Positions 21,543-37,672 of a stretch of DNA of 64,000 nucleotides are shown in pieces; position 1 is the stretch's first letter; the number at the start of each line of letters is the position of its first letter. Made by a program: the position numbers and the translations under genes. Origin of the DNA: Gemmatimonas aurantiaca T-27 (GTDB lineage: Bacteria; Gemmatimonadota; Gemmatimonadetes; Gemmatimonadales; Gemmatimonadaceae); contig NC_012489.1 of NCBI RefSeq assembly GCF_000010305.1, forward strand, positions 2,921,646 through 2,985,645, in the 5' to 3' direction. A model generated the notes under the pieces. It made no database searches, had not been told where the DNA came from, and worked only from the letters and a program-made list of their open reading frames with translations.

Positions 21543-22094
21543 CTAACCTATCTCCGGCATCCTACCGTGGGCAAGCGCCACGATGGAATCCGTAATACGT
21601 TGTGGATCAACGAGTTCCACGTCCAGGACAATATCCGACATATTGTAGAGTCCGGCCCGGGCCTCCCATAAAGCGTTCATTTTTACTGCTGGGTCTGCCT
21701 CCATCAGGAGCGGGCGGGTGGTACGGGATCGGGACAATCGACGGACCGCTTCGGCGGGTGAAACCAGCAAATGAATGAGGCAACCTGGCGGTCTCATCAA
21801 TTCAATAACACCGGGGTTGGTGATCCAACCACCACCGGGCGCGAGGATCATGGGCGGGGCGGCGGCGAGTTCCCGCGTGAGCGCCATCTCCATCTGACGA
21901 AAGGCTGGCTCTCCCTGCTCGGCAAAGATCCGGGCCACGGGCATCCCGGTCCGCCGTTCGATCTCCACGTCGAAATCCAGAAAGGGCCGCCCAAGCGACT
22001 TGGCTACCGATCGGCCGACGGTGGACTTGCCCGCCCCAGGCAGCCCCACCAGCACGATGTGACCGTCGATCTGTCGCTCGGCCTGACTGGTCAC
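21543..22094 (-). CDS. aroK: shikimate kinase
   Basis: Phosphorylates shikimate at the 3-hydroxyl in the aromatic amino acid pathway. It has a P-loop GLPGAGKSTVG, the shikimate-binding DFDVEIERRTG with conserved Asp, GEPAFRQMEM, a PGGGW motif and the lid Arg in RTTRPLL. Its 183 residues are typical of AroK/AroL. It lies 8 bases after aroC, which acts two steps later in the same pathway, and 3 bases before the smg start. The operon head is therefore biosynthetic and the tail genome maintenance. Confidence 0.95.
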   Translation of the reverse strand: MTSQAERQIDGHIVLVGLPGAGKSTVGRSVAKSLGRPFLDFDVEIERRTGMPVARIFAEQGEPAFRQMEMALTRELAAAPPMILAPGGGWITNPGVIELMRPPGCLIHLLVSPAEAVRRLSRSRTTRPLLMEADPAVKMNALWEARAGLYNMSDIVLDVELVDPQRITDSIVALAHGRMPEIG

Positions 22095-33830: not shown

Positions 33831-35069
33831 CTATCCTGCCGACGCGGTGGATTCAGGTACGACGGATCGCATGCCACTGCCATGCAGCGGCAACAGGATC
33901 ACGAACGCGGCACCACCTTCGCGCGCCCGCTGTACCCACACGGTGCCACCAAGATTTTCGATCGTGCTGGCGACGATAGCGAGCCCGAGCCCGGTGCCCT
34001 TCCCTGGCTGCTTGGTGGAAAAGAACGGCTCGAAGATGCGTTCTTCGTCTTCCGGGGCAACACCAGTTCCCGAGTCGGCCATCACGATTTGCAGAAAACG
34101 CGAGGGCGATTCGGGTCGGGCAAGCCATGCGAGTGCCCGCTTGCTTGGGCGATGTGCCCAACGCTGGGGGGCAGGATCCGTACGGCGCTTTTCGATGGAA
34201 TCCGCAAACGCGCCGGCCTCATTGATCCGCGACCGAATCACCACCTCCCCTTCGCGGTCCATCGCATCGACGGCGTTCAGCAGCAGGTTGACGAAGACCT
34301 GCTCGAGGTCATGCCGTTCGGCATACACCACACCGCCGGGTGCCTCGAGTTCGCTGGTAATGCGAAAGCGACGGGTGAGTCCCTGGTCGGCGAGCAACCG
34401 CAACACGTCCACGATGACGGCATCAACGGCGATCGGCTTCGGCGTCAGCCGACGCGGGCGGGCATAGTCGAGCAGGCCACGCATGATGCGGTCGATGCGT
34501 GTGATCTCCCGCTCGAGCGCATCAATGGGCTCAGTCGTGCCGGGGACGTCGGCCGTGCGCATGCGCAGCACATGGGCATAGTTCGCGATCGCGGCGACGG
34601 GATTGCCGATCTCGTGTGAGATCCCAGCCGCGATGCGTCCCATGGTCGCCAGCTTCTCCACCCGCATGCGGGACTGCGTGGCCGCCAGCATCTGCTCGGT
34701 CATGCGATTGATGCTGGTTGCGAGCTGGTCGAATTCGCGTGTCTCGGCACGCGGCACGATCCGGTTGCTGTCTCCACTCGCAATGGCTTCCGCCACACTC
34801 ACGGATTCCACCAGAGGACGTTCCACATAGCGCGAGACCTGTCGGCGCAGCACGCTCGTGAAGACGACCAATACCAGCAAGACGAGGAGAATGACCACCG
34901 GCCACCGTGTGGCATTCGGCAGATCCTCGGTGACCCACATGGTGACGATGATGGCCAGAATGGTCGGGCCGCACGCCAGAGCGAGCACACGCTGCAGGCG
35001 CTCGTGAATCCGTGGGCGGGTGGGTTCGGTCACGCCGTTCAGGATGCGTGCTCGACGCCTCAGTGGCAA
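33831..35069 (-). CDS. membrane sensor histidine kinase
   Basis: 412 residues: two N-terminal membrane helices (~28-65) with almost no periplasmic loop, a HAMP-like region, a HisKA domain with phospho-acceptor His in GISHEIGNPVAAI, and an HATPase domain with N box NLLLNAVDAM, G1 DSGTGVAPEDEERIF and G2 GKGTGLGL. The small input region suggests it senses the membrane itself or needs a partner. No response regulator is adjacent except PilR at 36287, so it may be a second kinase for the pilus regulator. The start is uncertain: TTG 35069 or GTG 35033. Confidence 0.9.
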   Translation of the reverse strand: MPLRRRARILNGVTEPTRPRIHERLQRVLALACGPTILAIIVTMWVTEDLPNATRWPVVILLVLLVLVVFTSVLRRQVSRYVERPLVESVSVAEAIASGDSNRIVPRAETREFDQLATSINRMTEQMLAATQSRMRVEKLATMGRIAAGISHEIGNPVAAIANYAHVLRMRTADVPGTTEPIDALEREITRIDRIMRGLLDYARPRRLTPKPIAVDAVIVDVLRLLADQGLTRRFRITSELEAPGGVVYAERHDLEQVFVNLLLNAVDAMDREGEVVIRSRINEAGAFADSIEKRRTDPAPQRWAHRPSKRALAWLARPESPSRFLQIVMADSGTGVAPEDEERIFEPFFSTKQPGKGTGLGLAIVASTIENLGGTVWVQRAREGGAAFVILLPLHGSGMRSVVPESTASAG

Positions 35070-35147
35070 CCGCCACTTTCTCTTCCAGCGTGATATGCGG
35101 CCATGGGCTTAGGTCGTTTGGGCATCCGAGTATCCCCAAACGGCAAA

Positions 35148-35171
35148 GGGGCCGGGCTTTCGCCCGACCCC
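35148..35171 (-). terminator. terminator hairpin after pilA
   Basis: GGGGTCGGGC pairs with GCCCGGCCCC (10 bp, one G-T wobble) around a GAAA tetraloop, followed on the minus strand by TTTGCCGTTT. It lies 57 bases past the pilA stop and should separate the abundant pilA message from the kinase gene downstream. Confidence 0.75.
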
Positions 35172-35227
35172 CTCCCCCAAACCGGTGCAGCTCGTTGAGC
35201 GAGCCGGCCGTCGGTATTGCGTGCTGC

Positions 35228-35608
35228 TTACTTGCAGGTGGCGCCGCCCGGCTCGCCTTCGGCGAGGTTGGCCGGCTTGCCCGTGCCGACGCCGATTTCG
35301 CAGCTCGAACCGGCCGCATTGGCGTGCGTGGCCGTCGCGGACCAGCCCGTGGCCGACTGCGTGCCCGGGGTGATCGTGACGCCTGACGAGCCCGAGGTCG
35401 GCATGGTCCAGGTGGCGTAGCTATTGTCTTCCGAGAACTTGGCCTCGCCAGCCGAAACCAGGTTCTTCAGATCGGACTTCATAGCGGTGATGTAGGCCTT
35501 CTTCTTCGTGTCATTGAACTTCGGGATCGCGATCGCGGCCAGGATGCCGATGATGACGACAACGATCAGCAGTTCGATAAGCGTGAAGCCCTTGCGCGTA
35601 CGGTTCAT
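35228..35608 (-). CDS. pilA: type IV major pilin PilA
   Basis: 126-residue prepilin with a 7-residue leader MNRTRKG, cleaved before FTLIELLIVVVIIGILAAIAIPKF, the canonical pilin helix with Glu5. The globular part is short, rich in Gly/Ser/Thr, and has a C-terminal Cys pair (SSCEIG and ATCK) framing a D-region. ATG 35608 is chosen because CTGGAG precedes it by 6 bases and because it gives a normal leader; the frame is open further upstream through the promoter. It is monocistronic: a sigma-54 element at 35678-35693 and a terminator at 35148-35171 frame it. Confidence 0.96.
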   Translation of the reverse strand: MNRTRKGFTLIELLIVVVIIGILAAIAIPKFNDTKKKAYITAMKSDLKNLVSAGEAKFSEDNSYATWTMPTSGSSGVTITPGTQSATGWSATATHANAAGSSCEIGVGTGKPANLAEGEPGGATCK

Positions 35609-35677
35609 GGTGTTCTCCAGTGGGGGGATTTCGGCAAGTCCGCCCGTGGTGGCGAGCCTTGCGACACCGACGCATAA

Positions 35678-35693
35678 GGCAACAGCCTTGCCA
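35678..35693 (-). promoter_or_regulatory. sigma-54 (-24/-12) promoter of pilA
   Basis: On the minus strand TGGCAAGGCTGTTGCC matches the consensus TGGCAC-N5-TTGC with exact GG-to-GC spacing. The expected start of transcription is near 35667, leaving a leader of about 59 bases before ATG 35608. The PilR-like sigma-54 activator encoded at 36287-37672 is the obvious activator. Confidence 0.85.
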
Positions 35694-35789
35694 GAGCAGA
35701 TGGCACAATAGAACTCATTTCTTTTCAATGACTTACACCATTTCTACTTCAGCTGTACCAATCCATTTCAGCTGGTGTTTCGCAAGATT

Positions 35790-35806
35790 CCTTGCAGCGT
35801 GCAAGG
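35790..35806. promoter_or_regulatory. inverted repeat, candidate upstream activator (PilR) site
   Basis: CCTTGCA-GCG-TGCAAGG is a perfect 7-base inverted repeat about 100 bases upstream of the pilA -24 element. It overlaps a second one, GCAAG-ATTC-CTTGC, at 35782-35795, giving three phased half-sites. This distance and shape fit enhancer sites of NtrC-type activators. Nearby, TTCAGCTG occurs twice (35748 and 35767). The 35609-35930 gap is otherwise AT-richer than its surroundings. Confidence 0.6.
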
Positions 35807-35863
35807 CTGACTCGTTCGGCTACGTCCCAGCGCGATATCAGTACTATGCCAGGAATGAAACGG

Positions 35864-35890
35864 CCGGTGTCGTCGTGTGACGGACACCGG
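35864..35890 (-). terminator. bulged hairpin after second pilin gene
   Basis: CCGGTGTCCGTC pairs with GACGACACCGG (one bulge) around a 4-base loop, followed on the minus strand by CCGTTTCATT. It lies 40 bases past the stop of the pilin at 35931, between that operon and the pilA control region, so it may end the pilS-pilR-pilin message. Confidence 0.45.
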
Positions 35891-35930
35891 CTGGTCGGTT
35901 GAAAAACGATGAGAGCCAAACCCACTTACC

Positions 35931-36290
35931 CTATCGACATTCAATGTCCGATGTGATTCCCGGCCCCGAAGCCAACGTGCAGGTCATGCCTGGCAGGCTC
36001 GCGTGATTGGCTTGGGCCGTCCAACCTGTCGTGGTCCCCACGAAGGTGAGTGTCACGCCAGCAGATCCGCGAGGCACCGGCATGTTCTCATAGCTGTTCT
36101 CAGACGTGAACCGGGACTCTGCGGTGGTGGCTACGACATGCAAGTCCGACTTCATGGCCGCGAGATACGCTCGCCGCTTGGAATCCCCGAATTTGGCCAC
36201 CGCCAGCACCGCCAGCAGACCAATGATGGTCACCACCGCCAACAATTCGAGCAGCGTGAACCCAATACGACCACGCACTCCAGTGTTCAT
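35931..36290 (-). CDS. second type IV pilin, PilA paralogue
   Basis: 119 residues. A short leader MNTGVRGRIG precedes FTLLELLAVVTIIGLLAVLAVAKF, a clear prepilin motif with Glu5. The remainder parallels PilA closely (DSKRRAYLAAMKSDLHVVATTAESRFTSENSYE in the same register as PilA's TKKKAYITAMKSDLKNLVSAGEAKFSEDNSYA, given here in outline), with a terminal Cys pair (MTCTL, IECR). It is coupled to pilR by an ATGA overlap at 36287-36290 rather than having its own sigma-54 promoter, so it should be made at low level, as a minor or alternative pilin. Confidence 0.92.
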   Translation of the reverse strand: MNTGVRGRIGFTLLELLAVVTIIGLLAVLAVAKFGDSKRRAYLAAMKSDLHVVATTAESRFTSENSYENMPVPRGSAGVTLTFVGTTTGWTAQANHASLPGMTCTLASGPGITSDIECR

Positions 36291-37672
36291 AGTGCCGCGT
36301 CTCCGTAGCGTGCCAGTTTGCGGTACAATGTGGAAGGATCAATCCCCAGCATGTCGGCGGCGCGACTCTTGTTGCCGCCTTCGTTCTGCAGTACCCACTG
36401 GATGTAGGCACGCTCGATCGCCTCGAGTGTCGGGCTGACCGGGGCGCGTTCACTCACCAGCGGCTCAGCGCGACGGGCCGTCACACGCTCCGGGAGCGCA
36501 TCCGCGGAGATCGTGTTGCCACTACAGAGAATGACGGCCCGCTCGAGCGCATTTTCCAGCTCTCTGACGTTGCCGGGCCATCCGTAGGCCATGAGCGCAT
36601 CGAGGGCTCCCTCGTTGAGCACCTTCTGTTCCTCGTGGCGCAACGTGGCCGAGCGTGCCAGGAAGCTTTCCGCCAGCACGGGGATATCGTCGGCGCGCTG
36701 CCGGAGGGGTGGCAGGTGCACCGCAATGACATTGAGCCGATAGAACAGATCGGCGCGGAACCCGCCCCGCTTGATCTCTTCTTCCAGATCACGGTTGGTC
36801 GCGGCCAGCACCCGTGTATCCACGGAAACCGATTCGGTGGCACCCACCGGAATCACTTCGCGCTGCTGCAACGCCCGCAACAGCTTGACCTGTGTGGAGG
36901 GCGTGGTCTCGCCGATTTCGTCCAGAAAAAACGTGCCGTGATTCGCGGCAGCGAACAGGCCTGTCTTGTCCTTCACGGCGCCGGTGAACGATCCTTTCAC
37001 GTGACCGAACAACTCACTCTCGAGCAGCGACTCGGGCAGCGCGCCGCAGTTGATCGACATGAACCCGTTGTCCGTGCGGGCGCTCAGGTCATGGATATAC
37101 CGCGCCACCACTTCCTTGCCGGTGCCGGACTCGCCGGTGATCAACACCGTGGAGTCCGTGGGAGCAACGGTTTCCGCCAATCGGAGCACTTCGAGCCAGC
37201 TCTTGCTGCGCCCGATGGGCCGCTGTGACGCATTGCGTTCCCGTCGGCGGATTTCCTGCTTGAGCACCTGGTTCTCCGCACGCAGCTTGCGATGTTCTGC
37301 AGCCCGGCGCAGGATCGCCACCAACTCGTCGTTGCGAAACGGCTTCTGGATGTAGTAAAAAGCCCCTTCATTGACCGCCTGCACCGCCGACTGCAGCGTG
37401 GCCTGGGCGGTCATCAGAATCACCGGCACATCGGGATCGACCTGCCGCGCCGCACTCAGTACCTGCACACCGCTCACATCAGGCATGCGCACATCGGTCA
37501 GCACAATATCCGGCCGCAACTCCTGGAGCTGCTCCACGCCTTGCCGACCACCATGTGCGGTGAAGGGCACAAACCCTTCGGTCTTCAGCAGGATGCGCAA
37601 GGAATCGAGGATGCTGGTTTCATCGTCGACGATCAGTACGCGCGGTGCATCATCCGACAGAGCGTAGGTCAC
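36287..37672 (-). CDS. pilR: PilR-like sigma-54-dependent response regulator
   Basis: 461 residues: receiver (~10-125; VLIVDDE acidic pair, phospho-acceptor Asp in DIVLTDVRMPD, KPF lysine), AAA+ sigma-54 domain (GESGTGKE, GSFTGA, FFLDEIGE, WPGNVRELENAL) and a Fis-type helix-turn-helix (NKSRAADMLGIDPSTLYRKL). All catalytic and phosphorylation residues are intact. The GTG start overlaps the kinase stop (GTGA) and the stop overlaps the second pilin. With the sigma-54 promoter in front of pilA, activation of pilin transcription is the natural role, as for PilR in Pseudomonas and Myxococcus. Confidence 0.92.
   Translation of the reverse strand: MTYALSDDAPRVLIVDDETSILDSLRILLKTEGFVPFTAHGGRQGVEQLQELRPDIVLTDVRMPDVSGVQVLSAARQVDPDVPVILMTAQATLQSAVQAVNEGAFYYIQKPFRNDELVAILRRAAEHRKLRAENQVLKQEIRRRERNASQRPIGRSKSWLEVLRLAETVAPTDSTVLITGESGTGKEVVARYIHDLSARTDNGFMSINCGALPESLLESELFGHVKGSFTGAVKDKTGLFAAANHGTFFLDEIGETTPSTQVKLLRALQQREVIPVGATESVSVDTRVLAATNRDLEEEIKRGGFRADLFYRLNVIAVHLPPLRQRADDIPVLAESFLARSATLRHEEQKVLNEGALDALMAYGWPGNVRELENALERAVILCSGNTISADALPERVTARRAEPLVSERAPVSPTLEAIERAYIQWVLQNEGGNKSRAADMLGIDPSTLYRKLARYGDAAL

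Follow-up and report, generated by a model that had tools for sequence, protein, structure and literature searches.

A putative PilR-RpoN enhancer and promoter region upstream of pilA in Gemmatimonas aurantiaca T-27

Control of pilA by PilS, PilR and RpoN has been described for Geobacter sulfurreducens, where pilA lies immediately downstream of pilR (PMC2725144), and control by PilR and RpoN for Pseudomonas aeruginosa, the PilR of which has TGTN11AGA and GTCT as hallmarks (PMC6058289). For Geobacter sigma-54 promoters, IHF has also been described between enhancer and promoter (PMC7962754). In the available parts of a comparative sigma-54 study Gemmatimonas is named for taxonomy only (PMC3162934). 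A search of titles and of the first lines of abstracts, outside which most subscription journals lie, found no paper on sigma-54 sites in Gemmatimonadota. Here we compare these systems with a pilin locus of Gemmatimonas aurantiaca T-27, located in a stretch of 64,000 nucleotides (the window) of a single-contig genome of 4,636,964 bases; positions prefixed C1 are those of the contig.

The pilA locus and its predicted sigma-54 core

The genes of the locus lie on the minus strand in the order pilS (39381-37669), pilR (37672-36287), a second pilin-like gene (36290-35931), a gap of 322 bp and pilA (35608-35228). The pilS-like gene codes for a sensor kinase of 570 aa with PAS, HisKA and HATPase_c domains, which is recognized as a PilS-type six-helix membrane kinase by its score against 6TM_PilS (50 bits, cut-off 27). 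Overlapping the end of pilS, the pilR-like gene encodes a response regulator of 461 aa with Response_reg, Sigma54_activat and HTH_8 domains, i.e. an NtrC-type protein with receiver, AAA+ and HTH parts encoded next to the pilin gene; an ortholog-like match to this PilR is present in 179 of 179 genomes of the family. The second pilin-like gene (119 aa; N_methyl 22.6 bits, cut-off 21.2) in turn overlaps the end of pilR, and pilA encodes a major type IV pilin-like protein of 126 aa (N_methyl 39 bits, cut-off 21.2), the best NCBIfam match of which is Myxococcus PilA at 56.6 bits, under the cut-off of 400 for that model. The genome also carries rpoN (PF04552, one match, 211.5 bits).

The usual loop of sigma-54 activators is GAFTGA, and the PilR of this locus (36287-37672, minus strand) has GSFTGA instead. 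Directly 3' of pilA, and ahead of minor pilin genes, lies a gene for a HAMP-type sensor kinase (33831-35069, minus strand). A hairpin 3' of pilA (35138-35219, minus strand), which matches Rfam BjrC68 at 24.4 bits, below the gathering score of 39, is probably a terminator.

The region studied, 35609-35930, is the entire intergenic stretch between the end of the upstream pilin ORF (35931) and the start of pilA (35608). It contains TGGCAAGGCTGTTGCC, the reverse complement of 35678-35693, in which the GG and GC of a -24/-12 element are separated by ten bases, the exact spacing that the sequence-only reading of this DNA had claimed; the transcription start predicted from this core is 35667 (minus strand), 12 bp after the C of the core. 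TGGCAAGN4TTGC occurs once in the 64-kb window, where 0.04 matches are expected. The general -24/-12 consensus is enriched neither in the window (10 matches vs 14.9 expected) nor in the genome (298 matches vs 267 in the backwards control), and any claim for this particular site therefore needs comparison with relatives. It is conservation among these relatives that sets the site above chance: the core is kept before pilA in the genus, mostly as TGGCAAGGCNGTTGCC, which supports the prediction of a sigma-54-dependent pilA promoter.

Candidate activator sites and their spacing in relatives

Two candidate activator sites are found upstream of the core. Site 1, the dyad TTGCACGCTGCAA (35792-35804, minus strand), starts 111 bp upstream of the T of the -24 element and is centred at about -131 from the predicted start; 19 bp downstream of it follows site 2, the weaker dyad TTGCGAAACACCA (35773-35785, minus strand; centre at about -112). 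TTGCAN3TGCAA is found once in the window (0.02 expected) and once in the 4.64-Mb genome, as it is in the backwards control, and GCAAGN4CTTGC with at most one mismatch is found twice in the window, with 2.7 matches expected. The dyad CCTTGCAGCGTGCAAGG and the overlapping GCAAG-N4-CTTGC that had been put forward earlier are both present, at 35790-35806 and 35782-35795, the latter consisting of the facing halves of sites 1 and 2 joined together. The wider proposal of a sigma-54 pilA promoter with upstream sites near pilS-pilR agrees with what can be seen directly, namely rpoN, pilS and pilR in the genome, the domains of PilS and PilR, and the elements themselves with their order, spacing and conservation.

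PilR was searched for in the 179 family genomes, and the DNA downstream of it was read in 30 loci and 80 stretches. Among 20 same-genus promoters, those with at least 8 of 10 dyad bases, the distance from the dyad start to the -24 T is 111 bp in 18, and 108 and 110 bp in the other two. The distance from the end of the upstream gene to the dyad in the same promoters runs from 23 to 1116, a range in which the largest values are inflated, some loci being without a second pilin ORF by pattern and L009 having a broken PilR frame. In 21 same-genus promoters the elements have high per-column information, and the stretches that separate them have low values. The layout extends to other genera: of 13 promoters picked by pilin ORF and core alone, 8 match the dyad in no fewer than 8 of 10 bases at -112 to -110, where shuffled sequences give 0.03 such promoters on average and 1 at most. 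The other five have no dyad there, and L078, one of the five, probably does not belong among pilin promoters of this type. In several Gemmatimonas genomes (L003, L008, L011, L016 and L023), tandem second pilin genes each have a core of their own, TGGTACGC-N3-TTGC, with a dyad about 107-110 bp upstream.

General -24/-12 patterns being as frequent as in controls, the match could in principle be accidental, with the conserved stretch acting as another promoter, as an RNA or as a terminator. This seems extremely improbable, as it is the elements that are conserved, and not the DNA between them, and the spacing is fixed to the core and not to the upstream gene. No sigma-70-like site was found in 35200-36400, and Rfam gave no match in the elements; the dyad was rejected as an RNA or terminator for lack of such a match.

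How the half-sites are paired is ambiguous from the sequences at hand. When 69 promoters (L078 and L101 left out) were scored for symmetry, the top peaks fell at -30.0 (the C-box described below), -99.0, -105.0 (site 1), -37.5, +2.0 (core) and -95.5, and the ambiguity arises because the peak at -99.0 joins the outer halves of sites 1 and 2. The real PilR dimer site might be site 1 only, or GCAAG-N4-CTTGC, with site 2 a chance or accessory half-site. The weakness of site 2 here and the peak at -95.5 fit such an arrangement, as do L005 and L007, which keep a palindrome near the position of the overlapping repeat despite the loss of site 1 (absent at the first pilin in L005, L007 and L011). In alignment A3 (without L047, L079, L101 and L109), however, the GC-N5-GC spacing of site 1 is seen again in site 2, where one C hardly varies, and in L110, from a distant genus, both sites are perfect. 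Two tandem dyads fit this alignment better than the overlapping repeat as a site of its own, and we regard the alternative pairings as unlikely, if not greatly so.

A sequence-only model (R1), trained on 19 same-genus promoters, finds its own site in this genome with an E-value of 2.9e-25, the next best being 1.48, and matches 90 of the 179 genomes and 28 of the 35 genera of the family at E <= 0.1. Forty of its 45 listed hits outside the genus (E <= 0.01) were read, the remaining five belonging to genus g10, and a pilin ORF lies downstream in 32 of the 40. Symmetry scoring and the comparison of helix and site made use of 27 of these hits, leaving out 8 without pilin, 3 duplicate promoters, L154 (wrong core) and L181 (identical to another).

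A broader model (R2), built on 37 promoters, all from the family, recovers a second full-length site in this genome at C1:14274-14406 (plus strand; E 6e-4), before another prepilin gene (N_methyl), along with weaker, mostly partial matches. The layout at this second pilin gene (L235, C1:14100-15700) is the same, with dyad TTGCACTTTGCAG, C-box and core CGGCACCATCGTTGCC. Outside the family, 10 of 12 R2 hits chosen for reading precede a pilin, and perfect dyads occur in L200 (-110), L201 (-101) and L204 (-101); the genomes concerned are absent from all training sets, yet the hits themselves are model-selected. The R2 tallies for the order (98/121) and the phylum (136/200) combine full sites with C-box-plus-core hits and chance matches, and do not count as evidence for the dyad. 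As a regulon marker the dyad was rejected, the exact dyad being unique in the genome, R1 having no other match better than E 1.48 and R2 adding one pilin besides weaker, mostly partial matches. The motif once offered for a genome-wide search thus leads to a single additional pilin gene and not to a regulon.

PilR is the likely binder of the TTGCA dyads, since its gene is adjacent, its recognition helix is near-constant (DPSTLYRKLARY in all same-genus PilR proteins that were read through to the end) and the hits lie mostly before pilins. The core could be a sigma-54 promoter and the dyads nevertheless be bound by another NtrC-family activator: further proteins of the PilR kind exist in this genome, with 9 matches to PilR scored, and the comparison of helix and site gives a single independent pair, too few to tie PilR to the dyads. 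With STLHRKL as the helix, site 1 often has TGGC in place of TTGC, and on a quick tree in which long branches meet, four helix-residue changes and two base-G changes leave that one pair on supported branches. Against such an activator, pilR is found directly upstream in the genus and, for many hits elsewhere, no more than a few kb away, four fifths of the R1 hits read outside the genus precede pilins, and the TTGCA dyad is absent from the flagellar cores of this genome. Another activator is therefore quite unlikely, and PilR is retained as the probable binder in what follows.

The C-box palindrome between dyads and core

Between the activator sites and the core lies a long near-palindrome, AAGTCATTGAAAAGAAATGAGTTC (35711-35734, minus strand), here called the C-box, with the form AASTCRTTG-N5-CAAYGASTT. 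Its centre is about 30 bp upstream of the -24 T and about -56 from the predicted start, and it gives the highest symmetry peak of the 69 promoters, in the genus and in other genera alike. This element had been missed when the locus was first described as a complete local control circuit; the layout of a sigma-54 promoter with activator sites holds up, and the list of parts was incomplete.

The C-box also occurs before sigma-54-like cores of genes other than pilins. In this genome, these are a flagellar rod gene (core 356272) and a fliQ-like gene (core 367287), where C-box and core span C1:356272-356339 and C1:367287-367354 without a TTGCA dyad (L237, L264, L283), a GFO/IDH oxidoreductase gene (394629), a gene without Pfam match (near 402 kb) and a PEP-CTERM gene (near 935 kb). 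Flagellar rod promoters with a C-box are found elsewhere too (L232, L238). As a frequent genome motif the C-box was rejected, with 47 matches at up to two mismatches vs 41 in the backwards control, and just the pairing with a core is enriched: a core (at least 10 of 12 bases) follows 25-60 nt downstream in 5 of 25 distinct C-box places, drawn from 30 listed of the 47 matches, vs 0 of 1000 control windows. From the start of the C-box to the core, the distance is 41 for pilA and the second pilin, 50-52 for the rod, fliQ-like and PEP-CTERM genes, and 28-29 for the oxidoreductase gene and the gene without Pfam match, three classes that are roughly one helical turn apart. A mismatch-free C-box pattern at 21593-21616 (minus strand; C1:2943238-2943261) has no good -24/-12 core 20-95 bases downstream.

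Candidates for the protein bound at the C-box are an IHF-like protein and a separate regulator. One HU-family gene was found in the genome (C1:1994908-1995192; L112:1453-1785, minus strand), and its product scores 91 and 87 bits against the IHF beta and alpha models and 61 and 53 against HU, each score being below its cut-off. The best match to the IHF motif WATCARNNNNTTR, 8 of 9 positions, lies inside the C-box (35723-35735), and at least 8 positions are matched in 181 of 1000 shuffles. We tentatively suggest, at somewhat less than even chances, that a Gemmatimonadota partner of sigma-54 not described before binds the C-box. It might be an IHF-like protein that acts as a homodimer on a symmetric site, or else a dedicated regulator. 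Placed about 56 bp upstream of the start, or a helical turn beyond that, it would join pilin, flagellar rod/export and surface-protein promoters in a common programme, in addition to the separate activators of each.

Proposed mechanism and comparison with described systems

It seems likely that the region is the enhancer and promoter of pilA, with an RpoN core, dyads bound by PilR, looping, and a C-box protein in between. Who binds what, the dependence on sigma-54, the loop and the role of the C-box are what we infer from the elements, as follows. RNA polymerase with RpoN would form a closed complex at TGGCAAGGCTGTTGCC, and PilS would switch PilR. PilR, on two dyads of the TTGCAN3TGCAA type centred about 131 and 112 bp upstream of the start, would loop to the polymerase and open the complex by ATP hydrolysis, with a C-box protein about 56 bp upstream of the start bending or docking the intervening DNA. 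Such bending or docking would account for a spacing that is fixed nearly to the base pair.

The dyad would provide the phylum, for which our searches gave no described sigma-54 site, with a candidate PilR recognition sequence. The C-box is common to several sigma-54-like promoters, and its binder could be fished with one short DNA. The rigid geometry, with the same 111 bp in nearly all same-genus promoters, amounts to a natural test of the constraints on enhancer spacing.

As in the PilSR systems of Geobacter and P. aeruginosa, a PilR-type activator is combined here with an RpoN-type promoter of a pilin gene; unlike in those systems, the recognition sequence is a different one, the geometry of 111 bp is strict and a C-box is added. 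Neither P. aeruginosa hallmark, TGTN11AGA or GTCT, occurs in 35600-35940 on either strand, and as these are species-level motifs the claim is that the circuit works like that of P. aeruginosa, not that the binding site is the same. NtrC sites have the form TGCACC-N5-GGTGCA. The locus resembles NtrC-type enhancers in having, some 110-140 bp ahead of a sigma-54 promoter, dyads suited to a Fis-type HTH, and differs from them in that the half-sites of site 1 face the other way (TTGCA-N3-TGCAA) and the two sites are 19 bp apart. In IHF-assisted sigma-54 promoters, too, one more conserved element lies between the activator site and the core, but here this is a long near-palindrome vs the asymmetric IHF motif, in a genome with one HU/IHF-family gene. 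Most of the C-box genes fit the theme of sigma-54 as controller of the bacterial exterior, which the comparative study carries in its title (PMC3162934). The comparison thus supports a known kind of circuit that has its own recognition sequence and a strict geometry, together with a shared C-box element.
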